Virus record (IMG/VR): IMGVR_UViG_3300022929_003665
Span: 1 to 23,631 of that record
DNA from: a virus
Strand: one strand, 5' to 3'
Length of the DNA: 23,631 bases
Made by a program: the position numbers and the translations under genes. Each line of letters begins with the position of its first letter. The first letter of the stretch is position 1. Shown piece by piece: positions 8,759-20,253 of this stretch. The notes under the pieces were generated by a model, which saw nothing but the letters and a program-made list of their open reading frames with translations, was not told the origin of the DNA and did not search any database.

Positions 8759-8834
8759 AGTGTTCGTTTTAATTTTTTTATTATCTTTGTAACTCCATAA
8801 AGAAAAGTATGCCAAAACTGAAAAAGGAATGTAT

Positions 8835-8872
8835 AACTGACATTCTGTCAGTTTTTTGAAAATTAACTGACA
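8835..8872. promoter_or_regulatory. Operator-like AACTGACA repeats between divergent UVR and ClpC-like genes
   Basis: AACTGACA (8835-8842) and its exact inverted complement TGTCAGTT (8846-8853) are separated by 3 nt, and a third direct copy of AACTGACA lies at 8865-8872. The direct copies start 30 nt apart, close to three helical turns. A T-run after the inverted pair could make a weak plus-strand hairpin, but no plus gene ends here. A regulator-binding site serving one or both divergent genes is more likely. Confidence 0.55.
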
Positions 8873-8909
8873 ATTTTGGAAATGGTGTATTTTGTATTAG
8901 AAATTGTCT

Positions 8910-8917
8910 TATATTTG
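8910..8917 (+). promoter_or_regulatory. Bacteroidota-type -7 box (TATATTTG) for the ClpC-like gene
   Basis: TATATTTG matches the TAnnTTTG -7 consensus, 25 nt before the ATG at 8943. The nearest TTTG (8891-8894) is only 15 nt upstream, shorter than the usual spacing of about 20, so the -33 element is poor. With the AACTGACA repeats further upstream this is consistent with an activated promoter, but not proof of one. Confidence 0.65.
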
Positions 8918-8942
8918 TAGAGTCAAAATAAAAAGAACAACT

Positions 8943-10961
8943 ATGATTGAATCTGTAGACCCGAACGAAAGTTCAAAAGGAAAAAAGGAAAGAGGACCAA
9001 AATCAGGAACACCTGTTTTGGATAATTTCTCACGTGACCTTATCCGTTTAGCGGAACAAGGTAAGTTAGACCCTGTTGTGGGTCGTGACCGTGAGATTGA
9101 CCGTATTGCTCAAATCCTTTCTCGTAGAAAGAAAAATAACCCCATCATCATTGGCGAACCTGGTTGTGGTAAGACTGCAATCGTTGAAGGATTGGCGATG
9201 AAAATTTACGAAGGTGATTGTCCTCGTAACCTTAGCGATAAACGTATCGTATCTTTAGATATGACATCTATTGTCGCAGGGACAAAGTATCGTGGACAGT
9301 TTGAGGAGCGTCTTAAGGTAATCTTGGACGAGTTGCATGATAACCCTGATATCATTGTGTTTATCGATGAGATTCACACCATCATCGGGGCTGGTAACTC
9401 ATCAGGTTCATTGGACGCTTCCAACATCTTCAAACCAGCATTGGCACGTGGTGAACTACAATGTGTCGGTGCAACCACTCTCGATGAATATCGTGAGAAC
9501 ATTGAGAAAGACGGAGCATTGGAACGTCGTTTTCAAAAAGTAATGGTGGATGGTGCCACCCCTGAGGAGACCATGATTATCTTGGATAACCTAAAGTCTC
9601 GTTATGAAAAGCACCATAAAGTAAACTACTCGAAAGAGTCATTGGAGGCTTGTGTATATTTGGCTGACCGTTACATCACCGACCGTGAATTCCCTGATAA
9701 GGCAATTGACATCATGGATGAGGTGGGTGCTCGTAGTCAGATTTCTGTGAAACTTCCCGAAGAGATTGAGAAACTCAAAGAGAAGGCGAATCAGATTAAA
9801 CAGGAAAAAATCAACGTGGTCAAGGCTCAGGATTATGAGAAGGCAGCACACTTACGAGACAAAGAGAAGAAAATCTTGAAAGAACTCGATAAGGTAAAGG
9901 CTGAATTCGAAAAGAAGCAAGACGAAGAACGTCAAGAAATCACTGAGGATATGGTATATGATGTAGTTTCAAACATGACTAAGATTCCTGTATCCAAATT
10001 GAACCAAAACGAAATGGAAGGTCTTTTGGATTTGGAAGGTAATCTGAACACATCAGTTATCGGACAAGAAGTGGCGGTCAAAAAGATTTCAAAAGCTATC
10101 CGCAGAAACCGTGTGGGGATTAAGGACCCCAACCGACCAATCGGTTCGTTTATCTTCTTGGGTTCAACAGGTGTGGGTAAAACTCACTTGGCGAAACAAT
10201 TGGCAAAACAAATCTTCGGAGATGAAGAATCTCTCATCCGTGTGGATATGAGTGAATACCAAGAGAAGTACACCATGTCACGTCTCATCGGTTCCCCTCC
10301 AGGATATGTGGGTCACAACGAAGGTGGTCAACTTACCGAAGCAGTCAAAAACAAACCTTACTCAGTAGTATTGTTTGATGAGATTGAAAAAGCAAACAAG
10401 GACATCTTCTCATTATTACTACAGGTGTTGGACGATGGTCACCTCACGGACAGTTTCGGTCGTAAAATCAACTTTAAGAACTGTTTGATTATTATGACTT
10501 CAAACTTGGGTGTGAAGAAACTACAAGACTTCGGAGCGGGTGTCGGATTTGATACCTCAGCAAGAATGAGTGGTGATGAGGACCTGAAAAAGGCTCTCCT
10601 ACAAAAAGAACTTAAAAACCACTTCACCCCTGAGTTCTTGAACCGTCTCGATGAAGTGATTGTCTTCAACCCTCTAAAAGAGAAAGAAGTACGTTCAATT
10701 GTGGATATCGAATTGGGTAAACTCACCAAACGTTTGGAGAAACTCGGTTACCACATCAACTTCACCGATGAAGTGAGAGATATGTTGGCTGACGTAGGTT
10801 TCGATGAGAAATACGGAGCACGTCCTATCAAACGAGCAATCCAAGAGAAAATCGAGGATTACATCTCAGAAGAGGTATTACGTCAAAAGATTAAAATCGG
10901 ACGTGAATACCAAATGAAGATGAACGAAGAAGAAGTAACCATTGAGGAAGGGGTAAATTAA
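8943..10961 (+). CDS. ClpC-like double AAA+ unfoldase without N-domain
   Basis: This 672-aa protein is counted from ATG 8943; an in-frame TTG at 8904 would lie upstream of or within the promoter. Bacterial ClpC is about 810-850 aa, and here the N-terminal double-repeat adaptor domain is replaced by a 25-residue charged tail. D1 has Walker A GEPGCGKT (71-78), Walker B IVFIDE (138-143) and arginine-finger region ERRF. A ClpC-type middle domain with a UVR-like motif is at about 275-320. D2 has GSTGVGKT (407-414), VVLFDE (475-480) and GARP sensor 2 (625-628). VGF (534-536) in the D2 loop matches the ClpP-docking loop of ClpC. These features predict ATP-driven unfolding and threading into a ClpP barrel, probably the host's, as none is encoded here. 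Confidence 0.95.
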
Positions 10962-10973
10962 TATCCCTTCCGA

Positions 10974-11005
10974 TTTGGAAGTTAAGAAATTAGATACTAT
11001 ATTTG
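10974..11005 (+). promoter_or_regulatory. Bacteroidota-type promoter of the M20 peptidase gene
   Basis: TTTG (10974-10977), a 20-nt spacer and TATATTTG (10998-11005) match the -33/-7 consensus. The start codon is 18 nt further on. This implies the peptidase gene is not solely dependent on read-through from the ClpC-like gene. Confidence 0.8.
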
Positions 11006-11023
11006 TATCAAATTAAAGGACAC

Positions 11024-12106
11024 ATGGACAACATTACATTAAATCGTTTCAAAGAACTCTTATCGGTTCCTTCAAAAACCTATCAAGAGGACAAGATGGT
11101 AGAATACCTTTCTTGGGTCTTAGATAGTATGGACGGGGTAGAATACTACACCGATGAGATGAACAACATCTACGCCACAAAACGTCAAGATGGCTTTAAC
11201 GGTTACTTCCCAATGTTTGTGGCACATACGGATACTGTACATGCCATGGTCCCTGAAATTGTTGTTAAGGAACAAACACTTCCCAAACCACCTACCTTCG
11301 GACGGACATTCGATGATACACAATACGATGTCCTGAAAGCTTACACTCCTGACGGAAATCCAACGGGTATTGGTGGTGATGATAAGTGTGGCATCTTTAT
11401 TTGTTTGGAATTACTCCGAGTACTGTCAAATGTAAAAGTAGGGTTTTTCGTCTCTGAGGAGACTGGTTGTATCGGGTCCAGCAAATGTGATGTCAAGTTC
11501 CTTAACAATGTAGGATATGTCGTTCAATACGATGCACCTGGTAACCATCTAATTACCGAGATATGCTCGGGAGTTCGCCTGTTTGAGGAAAACGGGGAAT
11601 TCATCAACAGAGCACTACCTGTAATTAAGAAAACCATGGAAACGGATATGGAACAACAGTCACACCCTTTTACTGACGTGTCTCAGATTAAGAAGAAAAG
11701 TGACGTTTCTTGTATCAATCTTTCCTGTGGGTATTACCAAATGCATACCCCCAACGAATTCGTAGTGTTGGACGATGTGGAGAAGGCCATCAGAACAGGT
11801 ATTAACTTGGTCAACGAGTTTGGGTATGAAAAGCAAGAGTTCGCCTACGAACCACCAGTATATTCTTACGGAGGTTTGTTTAATCTTGATGATGCCGAAG
11901 ACGACTTGGGTGATTGGGATAATACTCTGTTCGATGGATTAGATGATGAGACTTATGAGTTGAATGACCACAAAGTAGTTGTTGAATGGGGTGGAGTTAC
12001 CATTGAGAGTAATCACACTGGTGATGTCCTATACTTAGATGAGGACGACGCAGTTGAACTTTATAAAATATTAAGGGAAAACTTCTTACTCAAAGGGGTC
12101 GAATAA
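11024..12106 (+). CDS. M20-type zinc metallopeptidase (PepT/aminoacylase fold)
   Basis: This 360-aa protein is counted from ATG 11024; the upstream in-frame TTG at 11003 is inside the -7 box. All hallmark metal and catalytic motifs of M20-type dinuclear zinc exopeptidases are present: FVAHTDTV (His68, Asp70), GIGGDDKCGIF (bridging Asp119), FVSEETGCIG (catalytic Glu145/146), VQYDAPG (Asp170) and YYQMHTPNEFV (His241). There is no signal peptide, so it is probably cytoplasmic. Family members trim short peptides or acyl-amino acids. A C-terminal extension of about 85 residues is very acidic (NLDDAEDDLGDWDN). Placed after the ClpC-like gene, it could finish degrading peptides released by Clp proteolysis (inference). 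The 3' end overlaps the convergent next gene by 21 nt. Confidence 0.92.
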   Translation: MDNITLNRFKELLSVPSKTYQEDKMVEYLSWVLDSMDGVEYYTDEMNNIYATKRQDGFNGYFPMFVAHTDTVHAMVPEIVVKEQTLPKPPTFGRTFDDTQYDVLKAYTPDGNPTGIGGDDKCGIFICLELLRVLSNVKVGFFVSEETGCIGSSKCDVKFLNNVGYVVQYDAPGNHLITEICSGVRLFEENGEFINRALPVIKKTMETDMEQQSHPFTDVSQIKKKSDVSCINLSCGYYQMHTPNEFVVLDDVEKAIRTGINLVNEFGYEKQEFAYEPPVYSYGGLFNLDDAEDDLGDWDNTLFDGLDDETYELNDHKVVVEWGGVTIESNHTGDVLYLDEDDAVELYKILRENFLLKGVE

Positions 12107-13942
12107 CTGATAGTTATTCATCAAAGAAATAATAGAGGAAAGTTTCGACTTTCCTTTTTTTGTTTCAAAAGAATCTATATCGGAATTAAATCTACTAAGA
12201 GTAAATTTCACTTTATTCGTTTCTGGGTCCACACCATCAATCCTGATATTTGCATCTTCAGATGTTGGTATTGGAATATTCTTTCCAAATCTACCATACA
12301 TTTCCTTCACTCTATTCATAACATTTAGGTACTGGTCGAAGTCTAAGAAGAAATCAGCATCATCCAATTTATCATATTCCTTTTCTAATATATTTGATAA
12401 ATCATCATTGAAATAATGGTCAAACGTCTCACTGTCGAAATTGTTATAGATGACGTCGTATGGATAATCTATCGGGAATGAAACTCTATGTGGTATTACA
12501 TTTTTCAACATATCAGTAAGATTCAAATCCTTTAGGTAATCCTCAGATTCAAATAATTCTAATAAATCTTTCAAATCAATATTATAGTTGTAAAAACAAC
12601 TTTCAGAATTATTTTTATGGAAACCTATTTCAGACAATATATCACATAACTCTTCTGTAAATTCTTTCTGAGTACCTCTTTCCATGGCTTGGTTTTGTGC
12701 GATTGAGTACGTATCACTTAAATTACTCATAAAGTCATCACCCAATTTATCTACCATAAATTTGGCCAACTCTTTTTCACCATCCTGTTTAACACTATAG
12801 GTACCATCATTATCAACAATCAGGTTTGACACCTCAGGGTCATAAATTTCAATAATTTCTTTTAGTTTTTTCAAATGTTCGTTTGAGAAATAACTAAACA
12901 CATAACCCTCAAGGAAATCATCATCAAAGTTATAGGGGTCGTATAGACTTAATTCAGAACCGTAAGGTGGGTCAATAATATCACTGATGAATCTAAGGTC
13001 ACCTTCATCAACATCTTCCTCAAAAAACTTAAGGAATTCTTCAGGACCATCAAATTTGAGTTTTACTACAAACTTATCATCCCCTTCTTTTTCAATCTTA
13101 ACCAAATGGTCACTTTGTATTCTACCTCTGACGTGGTCTATTTTACCTTCTTGTATACCTTTTAATGTTTCGTAATGTTTGTTTCCTTTAACCAACTTTC
13201 TGATTTGTTCTTGGATTGGTGAGAATCTATCTAACAATACATCTAAGCTTCTTACGGAGTCTTTCTGGTCATATACCTCCGTTGTACCGTTACTTCTTAC
13301 AAATAAGGCCATCTTACCCCACGTGGAATCTTTCGATGTCTTATCAATGATATAAAATAGGTTTCCTTCTTCTGAATATTTGTCAAAATATCGGGTATCG
13401 TCTTTTGTCGTTGTACACCATTTGGTTCCAGCTCCATAGTAACACGAAGCACCGTGAGAATACGGTTGAACAATTAAGAACCTATTATCTTCATATATTC
13501 TATCAGACTCGCCCTTAACTTCCTTTTCTTTTTGGACCATGATTTGTCTCTGACGGACAGCGTTCATCACCGCTTGTAATCCCCAAATACTATATTTGTT
13601 AATGTCTTTAGGTGATGACTTAATCTTAGAAGCATCAACAAATGATGATGTTGAGGCTGCGTAGTCAATATCTTCTGGTTTGATTGCCGTGGCACTCTTA
13701 TGGAAACTTTCAATAAGGTCAATGAATAAATTTACATTGTCAGCAACTGAGAACGTAATTGGGTCACCGAGACTAATCATTTGTTTAATCATCCACTCAG
13801 AATACTTTTTGGTTGCTGAAGGGTCACCGTCGATAAGTTTCTCCAACAACTCAGTGGCATCGGCAAAGGTAGGACTGTCCTTGTACTTATCTATAAGGTT
13901 CTCCTTTTTACCTTCGAGTAGTATGTTCTGAAATTTAATCAT
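12086..13942 (-). CDS. Large protein with Cys/Trp motif (GAGTKWCT), function unknown
   Basis: This 618-aa protein starts at ATG 13940-13942. Its best-defined part is residues about 150-225: IYEDNRFLIVQPYSHGASCYYGAGTKWCTTT, then F.KYSEEGNLFYIID and WGKMALFVRSNG. This gives a pair of Cys (167, 176), an invariant-looking Gly-Thr-Lys-Trp-Cys-Thr and a beta-rich continuation. I have an impression of related motifs in hypothetical proteins of large phages but cannot name a family. The rest is acidic, rich in Asp/Tyr/Phe and probably helical repeats (FDSETFDHYFNDDLSNILEK). No signal or membrane segment. TATTTATA at 13953-13960 lies 10 nt upstream. It overlaps the convergent peptidase gene by 21 nt. 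Confidence 0.88.
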   Translation of the reverse strand: MIKFQNILLEGKKENLIDKYKDSPTFADATELLEKLIDGDPSATKKYSEWMIKQMISLGDPITFSVADNVNLFIDLIESFHKSATAIKPEDIDYAASTSSFVDASKIKSSPKDINKYSIWGLQAVMNAVRQRQIMVQKEKEVKGESDRIYEDNRFLIVQPYSHGASCYYGAGTKWCTTTKDDTRYFDKYSEEGNLFYIIDKTSKDSTWGKMALFVRSNGTTEVYDQKDSVRSLDVLLDRFSPIQEQIRKLVKGNKHYETLKGIQEGKIDHVRGRIQSDHLVKIEKEGDDKFVVKLKFDGPEEFLKFFEEDVDEGDLRFISDIIDPPYGSELSLYDPYNFDDDFLEGYVFSYFSNEHLKKLKEIIEIYDPEVSNLIVDNDGTYSVKQDGEKELAKFMVDKLGDDFMSNLSDTYSIAQNQAMERGTQKEFTEELCDILSEIGFHKNNSESCFYNYNIDLKDLLELFESEDYLKDLNLTDMLKNVIPHRVSFPIDYPYDVIYNNFDSETFDHYFNDDLSNILEKEYDKLDDADFFLDFDQYLNVMNRVKEMYGRFGKNIPIPTSEDANIRIDGVDPETNKVKFTLSRFNSDIDSFETKKGKSKLSSIISLMNNYQLFDPFE

Positions 13943-14019: not shown

Positions 14020-14559
14020 ATGAAAAAGATAATCAACATAATTTTATTCACCCTACTTTCAACTCCCGTATTTTCACAAGGGTTTAATGACTCCATCATG
14101 AATCAGGTTTTGTTTGATGAAGTAATTGCGTACCATGAAAAACGAAACAACAAGGTTGAGGTTTATTTTAGTAAAGTAGGTGCGGAATTACACAGTAAGG
14201 GTTCTGTTGAATATATGAAAAATAATGGTTGTCGTCACAGACCTTCACACAGCTATCTTAATTCGTTACCCAAAAATGAAGTAATTATGATTCTAAATGA
14301 TATTGGTGTTGATACTACTGAATATGATTATATTGGTAGGGGTGAAATACTGGCAAGAATATCAATAAGAGGTCAAACCACTTATCAAGACGTTGCAAAA
14401 AAAGCTATTAATGGATGGTTAAAATCAAAAGGTCACCAAGGAACCATCATGAATATTGGGATGTTTGGAGAACTTGAAATTTTAGGTATTAGTTCTAGTT
14501 ATAATGAGAAAACGAGAAGTGTAGATATCGCCTTGACTCTATTCTCTGCACTTAAATAA
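14020..14559 (+). CDS. Exported CAP/SCP-like domain protein
   Basis: This 179-aa protein has a clear Sec signal peptide (KKIINIILFTLLSTPVFSQ, cleavage near residue 20) and no lipobox Cys. The mature part has features of the CAP (SCP/PR-1) fold: GRGEILARIS (107-116), which resembles the family's GENI strand, and AINGWLKSKGHQGTIMN (129-145), which resembles the family's W..SxGHR.NIL signature with His139. A C-terminal strand (SVDIALTLFSALK) fits the last family strand. The upstream CAP His is not unambiguous. CAP proteins are secreted, with poorly known roles in bacteria (lipid binding, adhesion, sometimes protease-like). In this host it would be released to the periplasm. CAP assignment is moderate; export is strong. 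Confidence 0.85.
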   Translation: MKKIINIILFTLLSTPVFSQGFNDSIMNQVLFDEVIAYHEKRNNKVEVYFSKVGAELHSKGSVEYMKNNGCRHRPSHSYLNSLPKNEVIMILNDIGVDTTEYDYIGRGEILARISIRGQTTYQDVAKKAINGWLKSKGHQGTIMNIGMFGELEILGISSSYNEKTRSVDIALTLFSALK

Positions 14560-15861: not shown

Positions 15862-16258
15862 GGGGGTGAATTGGAATCGATTGGCGTAGATAGTCATACG
15901 GGGCACGTAGTGAGATGTTATCTATCACTTTAATCTATGGTGACACTTTTTTTAACTGGCGAAACAATCGCAAAACTTCAGGCTGTAGGTCTTCTACGCA
16001 CTGAAGAAGTAACTGTAGCGTAAGACGCAACAGTGAAACGGGTCGGTGGACATATAACCTTTGAACAGAAGTCTGTATACGGGAGTCACAGGTCAGAGCT
16101 CTCTTAAATAACTCTGAGACCAGGTTGTTTATTGGTTTGTTTCCCACACACATCAAACCATTTATTTCGGAATGTTGAGAACCAACATTGACCTAAACGT
16201 GTAGTCCTTTATGGGTGATGCGAGCAAGACTCGGGTTCGACTCCCGACACCTCCACCA
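15862..16258 (+). ncRNA. ssrA: Transfer-messenger RNA (tmRNA), one-piece
   Basis: This is a 397-nt RNA. The 5' GGGGGTG (15862-15868) pairs with CACCTCC (16248-16254), followed by discriminator A and an encoded CCA (16256-16258). The T-arm TCGGG/TTCGACT/CCCGA (16231-16247) and the conserved TTGGAATCGATTGG and CTAAACGTGTAG blocks match bacterial tmRNA. It would be charged with alanine and with SmpB rescues stalled ribosomes, adding a degradation tag. The tag frame is unusual: starting at GGC 15958 gives GETIAKLQAV then 11 more residues ending VTVA and TAA at 16021-16023. Starting at GCG 15959 gives AKQSQNFRL and TAG at 15986-15988. Neither ends in the usual ALAA. A stem (CTTCAG 15976-15981 with CTGAAG 16001-16006) looks like helix 5. 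Confidence 0.93.
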
Positions 16259-16335: not shown

Positions 16336-16971
16336 ATGAGTCACGTAGGAAAACAATTCCCAAATATCACAGTCAACGCCATCGATGAGATGGGTGATAC
16401 GTTCAAGTTGAATGTCGTTGAAAAAGCAAAATCAGAATCTAAGAAAGTCTTATTATTCTGGTACCCTAAAGATTTCACTTTTGTATGTCCAACTGAAATC
16501 CATGCCTTCCAAGAAAAATTACAGGACTTTGCTGACCGTAACACAATCGTCATCGGAGCATCTTGTGATACCGCAGAAGTACACTTCGCATGGTTGAACA
16601 CAGAAAAAGACAACGGTGGTATCGAAGGAGTAACATTCCCATTAATCGCTGACACCACTCGTGAACTATCAAACAGATTAGGTATCTTAGACCTAACAGA
16701 AACTTTTGATGTAAACAACGGTGGTATCAAAGTAGAAGGTGATAACGTTACTTACCGAGCAACTTACCTAATTGATGAGGAAGGTAAAGTATTCCATGAA
16801 TCAGTAAACGATATGCCGTTAGGTAGAAACGTGGATGAATACATTCGTCTTATCGACGCTTACTCTCATGTTCAAAAACACGGTGAGGTATGTCCAGCAA
16901 ACTGGGAAGAAGGTAAAGAAGCAATGTCAGCAACTCGTGAAGGAGTATCAACGTACTTAAGTAACAATTAA
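16336..16971 (+). CDS. 2-Cys peroxiredoxin (AhpC/TSA family)
   Basis: This 211-aa protein has the full typical 2-Cys peroxiredoxin plan: YPKDFTFVCPTE with peroxidatic Cys51, Arg at RATYLID, and a resolving Cys186 in HGEVCPANW. It reduces hydrogen peroxide and alkyl hydroperoxides in the cytoplasm with electrons from a thioredoxin, and a thioredoxin gene starts 1 nt after its stop. Nothing is truncated. No consensus -33/-7 promoter was found between the tmRNA terminator and the ATG, so its transcription start is unclear. Peroxiredoxins are uncommon in phages; the gene is probably host-derived. Confidence 0.97.
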   Translation: MSHVGKQFPNITVNAIDEMGDTFKLNVVEKAKSESKKVLLFWYPKDFTFVCPTEIHAFQEKLQDFADRNTIVIGASCDTAEVHFAWLNTEKDNGGIEGVTFPLIADTTRELSNRLGILDLTETFDVNNGGIKVEGDNVTYRATYLIDEEGKVFHESVNDMPLGRNVDEYIRLIDAYSHVQKHGEVCPANWEEGKEAMSATREGVSTYLSNN

Positions 16972-16972
16972 G

Positions 16973-17284
16973 ATGATTGAGTTAAAAGAAGACAACTTAG
17001 GAGATATTCTTTCTGATAACTCCAAAGTAATGGTCCAATACGGAGCTGGTTGGTGTGGTAACTGTCGATTGACAAAACCTAAGTTCAAAAGAATGTCCAC
17101 AGAAAATGAAGATATCCAATTCGTTTATGTGGATGCTGAGAAACTACCAGGTTCACGTCAGTTCGCAGATGTATCCAACCTACCAACATTCGCAGGATTT
17201 GTGGATGGCAAATTGGTGAAACAATCTCAGGGTAATAAAATTGAAGTTATACAAGACGTATTAAATGAAGTTACCAATAATTAA
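16973..17284 (+). CDS. Thioredoxin-family protein
   Basis: This 103-aa protein is of standard thioredoxin length. The active site is GAGWCGNC (Cys28, Cys31), with cis-Pro71 in NLPTFAGF and a Gly-Lys turn (DGK). The WCGNC site differs from classical WCGPC, so its redox potential may differ. It is the likely electron donor for the peroxiredoxin encoded immediately upstream (1-nt gap). The last 20 nt overlap the following gene. No export signal, so cytoplasmic. Confidence 0.95.
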   Translation: MIELKEDNLGDILSDNSKVMVQYGAGWCGNCRLTKPKFKRMSTENEDIQFVYVDAEKLPGSRQFADVSNLPTFAGFVDGKLVKQSQGNKIEVIQDVLNEVTNN

Positions 17285-17516
17285 AACGATTGTAGAATCA
17301 GGTGAATTTGATGAAGATTACTTAGACGAAACGATTGAGGTTCTTCTTTGTATCTCAGAAGCAAGAGGACTCAAAGATGAAGAAATGGAAGTCATCGGAG
17401 AGCTCATCTCAAATATCTCAGGAGCGCAAGAGGTGATGAAAGAGATAAAAGACGGTACCCCACAACGTGATGCCCTGAATGGGTTTATGAAACGAGTGAT
17501 GGGTGCAATAAATTAA
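17265..17516 (+). CDS. Small protein resembling the Bacteroidota DUF6952 family
   Basis: This 83-aa acidic helical protein begins MKLPIIKTIVESGEFDEDYL. Its pattern (ETIEVLLCISEARGLKDEEME, VIGELISNISGAQEVMKEI, then ALNGFMKRVMGAI) resembles what I recall of a small family found beside peroxiredoxin and thioredoxin genes in Flavobacteriia. Family name is from memory and moderate in confidence. The start codon lies inside the thioredoxin gene (20-nt overlap), so translation is probably coupled. Its function is unknown; co-occurrence suggests a part in the peroxide/thiol pathway. Confidence 0.85.
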   Translation: MKLPIIKTIVESGEFDEDYLDETIEVLLCISEARGLKDEEMEVIGELISNISGAQEVMKEIKDGTPQRDALNGFMKRVMGAIN

Positions 17517-17916: not shown

Positions 17917-18666
17917 ATGACAGTAACAGGAATCAACATCGAAGAAAAAGTAAGAAACTACGAAGGAACAAACACCTTTATTATGAACCTCAAACCAGGA
18001 TTGGCAAAATGGGGTCGTCTAACACCAAAGCAAAAATCATTCGCTGAGAAGATTATTATGAACGAAGTACGTCAATCAGATGTGAACGTAGAAGAACTAC
18101 CTGAAAACATCAAAAACATTGTTAACTACGATGGTGAGTTGAAATTCGTAAAAGATATCCAATCAAAGTACAACAAGTACCGTCGTCTAACTAAGAAGCA
18201 AGTAACTGCGGCCAACAACGCAATCTCACGTGAGAAGGCTAAGAAGTCTCAAAAAGACCTCAACATTGACTTGGTTGGAAACACCATCAAATTGGGTCGC
18301 AACATCGCAATGGACATCAAAGAAGAATACGAATTAGACTTCCACCCAATCTTAGTTGACGTAACCAAAGTCATCACCGTCTCTGAGAAGGCTATGAGGT
18401 TGGAGGCAAAACTCACAAAAGAGAACGGTGGTATCTGTCGTTGTTGTGGACGTACCCTCACCGATGATATGTCTCAACTGACAGGTGTAGGTCCTGTATG
18501 TGCTAAGTACGTAGGTGTTCCACATCCAGCGTCTCGCAAAGACATCCCTCAGTTCAAACAACAAATGGCTGAACGTATCGATGAGGTCGGAGCTTTCGAG
18601 TTTTGGATTCCGAAACGTCAAATCAAAGAATGGAACGGTCACGCAGCGGTATTGTTGAAACTCTAA
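17917..18666 (+). CDS. DUF6011-like zinc-motif protein with two LTxKQ repeats
   Basis: This 249-aa protein has three parts. Residues 24-47 (NLKPGLAKWGRLTPKQKSFAEKI) and 80-103 (DIQSKYNKYRRLTKKQVTAANNAI) are related repeats around LTxKQ, a motif I associate with proteins of nucleic-acid context. A central segment (115-165) is mixed alpha/beta. Residues 174-198 form a Cys motif CRCCGRTLTDDMSQLTGVGPVCAKYVG-like block with Cys174, Cys177, Cys195 and nearby His204, resembling the DUF6011 pattern C..CGR.L.d..S...GxGPxC. A zinc-stabilised module is likely. It has its own host-type promoter. The biochemical role is unknown; a DNA- or RNA-associated phage early function is a guess. Confidence 0.85.
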   Translation: MTVTGINIEEKVRNYEGTNTFIMNLKPGLAKWGRLTPKQKSFAEKIIMNEVRQSDVNVEELPENIKNIVNYDGELKFVKDIQSKYNKYRRLTKKQVTAANNAISREKAKKSQKDLNIDLVGNTIKLGRNIAMDIKEEYELDFHPILVDVTKVITVSEKAMRLEAKLTKENGGICRCCGRTLTDDMSQLTGVGPVCAKYVGVPHPASRKDIPQFKQQMAERIDEVGAFEFWIPKRQIKEWNGHAAVLLKL

Positions 18667-18699: not shown

Positions 18700-19512
18700 A
18701 TGAAAAATATATTCTTACTTATTCTACTTCCCTTCACTTTGTTGTCCCAATCATATAACCACGCAGACACATTAGGTGATTACAACGGTTACCGTTATTT
18801 TGCATCAAAAGAAAGATTTAGTTTTTGGGATGCTGAACAACACATTCAAAGTGTGGACAGTAACCTACATCTATTATCCATTCATAGTGAAGATGAAAAC
18901 CTATTTGTTTATGACCGTATAAACCTACTTCACTACAATGATAATATCCAACCGTTCTATTGGTTGGGTGGTCACGATGAAACCGAAGAGGGGAATTGGG
19001 TTTGGTTGGACGGAACTCAATGGGATTATGATGACTGGGAGACCGATACCTCACAAATCACAAATGGACCCGAACCCAACAACTTAGGACAAAATGAACA
19101 TTACCTTATGGGTAACTATTATTTGGACGGTAGTTGGAATGACGCAACAAATAATTCTACGGACGACCCATTCTATTATGTCTTTAAGGTTGAAATTATT
19201 GAGGTACAGGATACCGTAACTCAAGATACGACCTCACAAGATACTACAAAAGTTGTGGATATCCAAATAGAAAATAAGATTTTTCCAACCTACCAAAGAG
19301 TGGAACTGTCAAAGGTGGTCTTTGAAACTTCATGGGAGAATCAAACACAATTCTACCTTCACGATTCAGGTGGTCGATTGGTACACAATACTGTGTTCGA
19401 TACAGAGCAACGTAATGTATTGAAACTCCCCCTACTATCTGCAGGTATCTACTATGGTGTAATGAAAAATGATGGGGAGTTATTTAGATTCAAGATTCTT
19501 CTCACGAAGTAA
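18700..19512 (+). CDS. Exported C-type-lectin-like protein with T9SS sorting domain
   Basis: This 270-aa protein has a Sec signal (KNIFLLILLPFTLLSQ, cleavage near 17). Residues 25-165 form a C-type-lectin-like domain: YYF-like start, FWLGGHDE-like FYWLGGHDETEEGNWVWLDG, EPN (125-127), GSWND (144-148) and a last YVFKVE strand. EPN and WND are the calcium and mannose-type sugar positions. No cysteines are present. A Thr/Gln/Asp linker (VTQDTTSQDTTK) leads to a C-terminal region (193-270) with YLHDSGGRLV, LKLPLLSAGIYYGVM and RFKILLTK, matching the T9SS type A sorting domain. It would thus be moved to the host cell surface or outside. No promoter seen; the 3' end overlaps the convergent GT25 gene by 33 nt. 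Confidence 0.9.
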   Translation: MKNIFLLILLPFTLLSQSYNHADTLGDYNGYRYFASKERFSFWDAEQHIQSVDSNLHLLSIHSEDENLFVYDRINLLHYNDNIQPFYWLGGHDETEEGNWVWLDGTQWDYDDWETDTSQITNGPEPNNLGQNEHYLMGNYYLDGSWNDATNNSTDDPFYYVFKVEIIEVQDTVTQDTTSQDTTKVVDIQIENKIFPTYQRVELSKVVFETSWENQTQFYLHDSGGRLVHNTVFDTEQRNVLKLPLLSAGIYYGVMKNDGELFRFKILLTK

Positions 19513-20253
19513 ATCATCTTCGGTAGGTTCAGTAAGTGAATTACCTGCGTCTTGAAATCTAGTTTGTGTAACATAATCAATATTGGTGGCAATTGCCGAT
19601 ATATTTGAAATGTACATGGACCTCATATCTTTCCTTGGGTGTGTCGCCATAACCGCAGCAAAAAACTCGTCAGAAACAACTATATTCTTTTTCAAAGTAG
19701 GTAAATGTTGTTCTACGAGTTTTTTTATACCCTTAGTATTCAATATATAACAGTGAGTGTTATAGAAATAAGTGGGTCTAACAAAGTTTTTTAACCCAAC
19801 TCTTATAGGTTCACCAATAACAGGAAATATCCTATGTAATGAGTTGTGAGCAACTAAACACATATCCCATTCATAAACCTGTAACTCATCGAAGATATTC
19901 CAATCCAAACGATTCATAGGTAAGAAATCGTCCTCCAATATCATCACATGTTTGTGACCATTATGATAAGCATCCTCCCAACATAATGTGTGCGAAATCA
20001 TCCCACCAGCTTCACCATAGGTGGTGTGTCTATTCCAAAAGTCATACGCAAATTCCTCTTCAGGAATTTTCCAACCGTCATATAACTTATACTCCAAACC
20101 GTCCTCTTCAATCAGTCGTTTACCCACAAACCCTTCAATCACCTTTATCGGCGTTCCATAAGGTAAGGGTATCTGTCTTGCCCTGTCAATAAGTTCTTGA
20201 ACGTATTCGGGACGGTGGTCTATAGAAATGATATAAACCTGGTCTATTTTCAT
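19480..20253 (-). CDS. GT25-family glycosyltransferase
   Basis: This 257-aa protein starts at ATG 20251-20253. VYIISIDHRPE at the N-terminus, GEAGGMISHTLCWEDAYHNG (80-99) and HVMILEDDF (102-110) are the signature of glycosyltransferase family 25, whose members add sugars such as galactose to lipopolysaccharide or protein. EDD (107-109) is the metal/nucleotide-sugar site. There is no signal, so it acts at the cytoplasmic side. Possible targets are host surface glycan (to block superinfection) or the phage's own proteins; neither can be told from sequence. Its 3' end overlaps the lectin-like gene by 33 nt. Confidence 0.93.
   Translation of the reverse strand: MKIDQVYIISIDHRPEYVQELIDRARQIPLPYGTPIKVIEGFVGKRLIEEDGLEYKLYDGWKIPEEEFAYDFWNRHTTYGEAGGMISHTLCWEDAYHNGHKHVMILEDDFLPMNRLDWNIFDELQVYEWDMCLVAHNSLHRIFPVIGEPIRVGLKNFVRPTYFYNTHCYILNTKGIKKLVEQHLPTLKKNIVVSDEFFAAVMATHPRKDMRSMYISNISAIATNIDYVTQTRFQDAGNSLTEPTEDDLLREKNLESK

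Follow-up and report, generated by a model that had tools for sequence, protein, structure and literature searches.

The T9SS secretion machine is known from Bacteroidota and related phyla, and the presence in a viral contig of a gene that appears to encode a cargo protein for it raises the question of whether a phage sends a protein of its own through the secretion route of its host and, if so, for what purpose. The gene is found in a stretch of 23,631 nucleotides (IMG/VR virus record IMGVR_UViG_3300022929_003665, positions 1 to 23,631), here called the window. From the DNA alone, the original prediction read the product as a lectin-like protein with a Sec signal and a T9SS type A tail, and the coordinates and length that it gave for the open reading frame are exact. 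It suggested a block of superinfection, aggregation or the binding of glycan as possible roles. The features of the locus are listed in Table 1.

Table 1. The lectin gene of the window, the regions of its product and the flanking features
Feature	Position in window	Strand	Basis or remarks
Lectin gene	18700-19512	+	270 aa, no cysteine
Sec signal peptide (predicted), residues 1-16 (MKNIFLLILLPFTLLS)	18700-18747	+	Hydrophobic core read from sequence; predicted cleavage before Q17
C-type lectin-like domain, residues 17-167	18748-19200	+	PF00059, phmmer, model fold; no cysteine
Ser/Thr-rich linker, residues 168-190	19201-19269	+	Motif count; contains DTV, DTT and DTT
T9SS type A-like C-terminal sorting domain, residues 191-270	19270-19509	+	TIGR04183, hhalign, strands, dN/dS
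DUF6011 protein, upstream neighbour	17917-18666	+	249 aa; PF19474, 40.2 bits; marks the conserved slot
Hairpin, 7 bp, G+C, GAAA loop	18675-18692	+	Follows the DUF6011 gene and precedes the start codon of the lectin gene
GT25 glycosyltransferase, convergent neighbour	19480-20253	-	PF01755, 36.3 bits

T4-like portal and terminase genes are present in the window, and among annotated cultured phages the Flavobacterium immuto phages come closest, with 26 % identity over the full length of the terminase. The window virus is probably a large phage with a host among the Bacteroidota. Consecutive genes for a peroxiredoxin, a thioredoxin and a DUF6952 protein (16336-17516, + strand) form a redox cassette that is unusual for a phage. 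Assignment of the host via the peroxiredoxin was not decisive, the first-listed plasmid match being to a Parabacteroides plasmid (46 %). The window also includes a tmRNA gene (15862-16258, + strand), which Rfam RF00023 matches along the whole model with 89.8 bits and on which ARAGORN agrees; the tag given by ARAGORN, AKLQAVGLLRTEEVTVA, is unusual. This gene is present in L002 too.

A Sec signal, as required of T9SS type A cargo, is clear from the sequence, as had been claimed. The signal ends in LLS directly before Q17, which fits the Bacteroidetes Q-rule, and the S/G16-Q17 site is kept in 10 of 10 homologues, with Q17 invariant. The Q-rule is described as a feature of the Bacteroidetes that is not common to the entire FCB group (PMC5837995). 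The window encodes a second secreted protein (14020-14559, + strand), also with a Q-rule signal peptide (TPVFS before QGF), that falls in no Pfam family and resembles a CAP-type domain by eye only.

The proposed C-type lectin-like domain with EPN and WND was likewise recovered. PF00059 matches residues 43-152 with 26.4 bits (Pfam gathering score 22.6), and phmmer matches of the domain include DEC-205 and langerin. The EPN is at residues 125-127 and the WND at residues 146-148, and E125, N127, E133, N147 and D148 align with EPNNAGNNEH...SWND of langerin, so that all five Ca2+-site-2 residues are present. The five equivalent residues hold Ca2+ and sugar in langerin, and EPN in vertebrate lectins accompanies mannose-type sugars. 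The lectin part was poor (pLDDT 57.5) in the first structure model, which used five sequences, and better (69.5) in the second. The model fold matches C-type lectins with Z of 13-14.6 and rmsd of 2.4-3.9 over about 116-137 residues, the best match having a Z of 14.6 and an rmsd of 2.9 over 129 residues. Within the lectin family, E125, E133, N147 and D148 never vary, and 9 of 10 members have N127. Conservation of the Ca2+ ligands while the overall identity drops to about 35 % favours real sugar binding, and we infer from these residues that the window lectin would bind glycan in a Ca2+-dependent manner.

The mature protein contains four D[ST][AILMTV] motifs, compared with 0.99 expected from shuffling (p 0.014). 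The pattern is that of O-glycosylation in Bacteroidota, and three of the four are within the linker.

Assignment of the tail to the T9SS type A sorting domains was upheld as homology but not as formal membership. In the HMM search, TIGR04183 matched residues 206-267 of the 270 with 19.1 bits (E 9.2e-4, 18,950 models), which does not reach the curated cut-off of 23, and the window tail has FPT in place of PNP. As the score is under the cut-off, the protein is referred to as T9SS type A-like. Homology to the type A domains over their length is nevertheless well supported by sequence comparison. Using hhalign, a profile of eight phage tails from the window family aligned over 78 columns (probability 96.5 %, P 7.5e-10) with a profile of ten T9SS tails, one from an immuto phage and nine from Bacteroidota plasmids. 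The immuto tail had served to retrieve the nine plasmid tails, whose genes are only in part annotated as T9SS. The window tail alone scored 10.1 bits, and none of 1000 shuffled versions exceeded 4.9. One relative with a canonical YPNP, L085, reached 23.6 bits with TIGR04183 in one search, above the cut-off, and 21.4 in another. Further TIGR04183 matches, inside open reading frames of 1841 and 1888 residues (G038 and G007), were weak and were taken as chance.

Seven strands are predicted in the tail (second model, pLDDT mostly 70-90), and seven is the strand number of T9SS domains (PMC10994853). The structural matches from Foldseek and VIA-align include the mirolase tail (8qb1_A; Z 8.6, rmsd 2.2, 74 aligned) and the NucA-bound translocon (8glk_D; Z 8.8, rmsd 2.5, 74 aligned), each tied with other Ig-like folds. 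Compared with L087, the tail is 89 % identical, and a dN of 0.089 against a dS of 1.07 (dN/dS about 0.1) indicates that it is kept by selection. Most homologues have FPT or YPT, and this variant is itself conserved within the lectin family. PNP is also missing from reference tails, namely the tail of a bacterial C10 peptidase (L142) and the immuto tail, which has PVP. The conserved type A motifs set the fold and not the contacts, with the exception of a near-invariant Lys near the C-terminus (PMC10994853), and the signal of HBP35 is within the last 22 residues (PMC11285876). Loss of PNP would therefore be tolerable. The window tail has Lys265 in its last strand, and K or R is found there in 10 of 10 homologues. 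However, given the score under the curated cut-off and the lack of PNP, we only infer recognition of this tail by the T9SS.

Nine relatives of the lectin, sharing 34-72 % identity, were found in viral contigs, all in the same slot as the window lectin, flanked by a DUF6011 gene on one side and a GT25 glycosyltransferase gene on the other. A genome scan for a close bacterial homologue of the lectin gave only one weak match, in a Eubacterium MAG. At its 3' end, the GT25 gene shares 33 bases with the lectin gene. The DUF6011 protein has 26 relatives in viral contigs, and the lectin gene is missing from many sibling phages. GT25 adjoins the lectin in 10/10 contigs with a lectin versus 3/16 without; when collapsed by lineage, the counts are 7/7 versus 2/9 (Fisher p 0.003). 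This association may reflect linkage. Four of the lectin-less siblings (G024, G027, G028 and G049) have, shortly after the DUF6011 and HNH genes, a gene for a T9SS type B cargo that scores 49-56 bits (cut-off 35). The type B cargo beside the slot in lectin-less siblings (L129, L130, L131 and L132) is encoded in open frames of 695-1136 aa and exceeds the TIGR04131 cut-off. Each of the eight lectin loci inspected has the hairpin, 7-17 bases before the ATG, with energies of -15.4 to -16.4 kcal/mol. In L117, a sibling that has no lectin, a hairpin of this type comes with a long T run and makes an ordinary terminator, and the hairpin conserved at the lectin loci is apparently a former terminator that has lost its T run.

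Lectin and T9SS domains were also found together in the immuto phages, divided between two proteins. The C-type lectin domain is in immuto gp013 and scores 57.3 bits. Immuto gp015 joins a cohesin domain to a T9SS type A tail (44.8 bits with TIGR04183; 34.6 with Pfam, cut-off 27). Of 26 related viral contigs, 25 have the tail of the cohesin-T9SS gene above the cut-off and 17 have a lectin domain; in most of the immuto-like contigs, some 2 kb separate the two, which are on the same strand. These counts indicate that a lectin domain and a T9SS tail recur together, fused or split, in a broad phage group. It is conceivable, if somewhat doubtful, that large T4-like phages of the Flavobacteriia generally carry a T9SS lectin display module, either fused or split with a cohesin-T9SS anchor, that controls phage adsorption. 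A dockerin-like stretch seen by eye in gp013/gp014 has no Pfam support, and no cohesin-dockerin link is claimed for this reason. A tblastn search of other cultured phages for a T9SS sorting domain, using a single tail, returned only the immuto isolates and chance-level matches. No immuto virion or secretion data were found in the one paper located on the immuto host (PMC7077304), which names no immuto phages. In the immuto phage L003, the lectin-domain gene, a hypothetical gene and the cohesin-T9SS gene form a single run (8806-11701), and the gene adjoining the cohesin-T9SS gene (12010-12723), which is kept in relatives, encodes a secreted protein that is CsgG-like by eye, with no Pfam support.

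Taken as a whole, the reading of the original prediction stands in part: the architecture and a route via Sec and the host T9SS are supported by the sequence, the homologues, the model and synteny, and recognition by the T9SS is the conditional step. Passage over the inner membrane would be by Sec, with cleavage by signal peptidase leaving Q at the N-terminus, as the family-invariant motif suggests. The C-terminal domain would then be taken across the outer membrane by the type A route (SprA/PorV), and the lectin would either be set free or stay attached to the cell surface, a course that follows from domain homology and published T9SS work. Judging by its sequence, the protein is likely to leave the cell through the host T9SS. 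Once outside, the lectin could bind a surface glycan of the infected cell. Superinfection exclusion, with a glycan receptor hidden from other phages, is the leading role but is put forward tentatively, by reasoning from the domains, and roles in host adhesion or as a glycan decoy are nearly as compatible. The joint explanation that we favour, with moderate confidence, is that a large T4-like Bacteroidota phage carries an accessory gene for a Ca2+-dependent lectin that is exported by the T9SS, with superinfection exclusion as the leading candidate role. If this is correct, a lytic phage re-dresses the outer surface of its host in mid-infection using a borrowed secretion machine, superinfection control can depend on secretion, and such lectins could report the glycans that serve as phage receptors in marine Bacteroidota. 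Cultures of the immuto phages and of Flavobacterium sp. LMO8 exist, which makes the idea directly testable.

The same export could serve another purpose, with the lectin acting as a secreted or surface-bound adhesin that sticks the infected cell to particles, algal glycan or neighbouring cells and so raises host fitness or brings new hosts close. This is possible though not the role we would choose. The published phage T9SS cargoes are largely glycan-active (endoglucanase, GH39 and PA14; PMC7468147), and the split immuto module pairs its lectin domain with a cohesin domain, but a lytic phage has little time to gain from adhesion of its host and the GT25 neighbour, by association only, better fits remodelling of the cell's own surface.

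Alternatively, the tail may have decayed, leaving the protein periplasmic or poorly exported. The replacement of PNP in most homologues and the TIGR04183 score below the cut-off are consistent with decay, as is the tail of L093, which is cut short or replaced and is not recognizable as a sorting domain. We consider it unlikely, because the tail is under purifying selection, the C-terminal strand with its Lys and the FPT/YPT variant are conserved, and the reference tails deviate from PNP in their turn. Less likely again is a decoy role, in which the released lectin would occupy glycan debris once the cell has lysed and so keep the progeny from being trapped on it. Type A cargo can reach the medium (PMC10994853) and the lectin is of the EPN type, yet the protein has no feature specific for timing or for binding debris. 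Least probable is a receptor-binding protein of the virion, like the C-type lectin targets of diversity-generating retroelements: the C-type lectin fold is frequent among phage receptor-binding proteins (PMC10743442), but the protein has a Sec signal and an export tail, and its gene is on the strand opposite to the portal and terminase genes and, in the relatives, sits between the DUF6011 and GT25 genes, away from the tail genes. No reverse-transcriptase-like open reading frame was noticed in the window, and the absence there of a template-like repeat speaks against a retroelement target.

The preferred reading, a T9SS-exported phage lectin, has precedents, and phage-encoded T9SS cargo as an idea is already known from Cryophage and crAss-like phages. 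The combination of a C-type lectin with a divergent T9SS sorting domain in one phage family was not found in the literature searched, and phage C-type lectin proteins are otherwise mostly discussed as receptor-binding proteins (PMC10743442). Cryophage (Bellas et al. 2020, PMC7468147) encodes T9SS type A domains predicted to use the host T9SS, in genes that occupy variable genome slots, as the window lectin gene does, and superinfection was suggested there. The Cryophage passengers are the glycan-active domains named above, whereas the window protein has a C-type lectin with a family-conserved Ca2+ site and a divergent sorting domain. The crAss-like phages, a different phage group, likewise encode a T9SS sorting domain together with a putative carbohydrate-binding domain in one ORF, but the latter consists of BACON repeats and is no C-type lectin (PMC6949934). 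The lectin domains of langerin, DC-SIGN and CEL-I share the fold, and langerin also the Ca2+-site-2 residues, EPN and WND, but the window lectin differs from all three in having no cysteines and a bacterial-type export tail. The immuto-type Flavobacterium phages (NC_055915) are T4-like, have Q-rule signal peptides and encode lectin and T9SS type A domains within about 2 kb; what is made there as two separate proteins, gp013 and gp015, is fused into one in the window.
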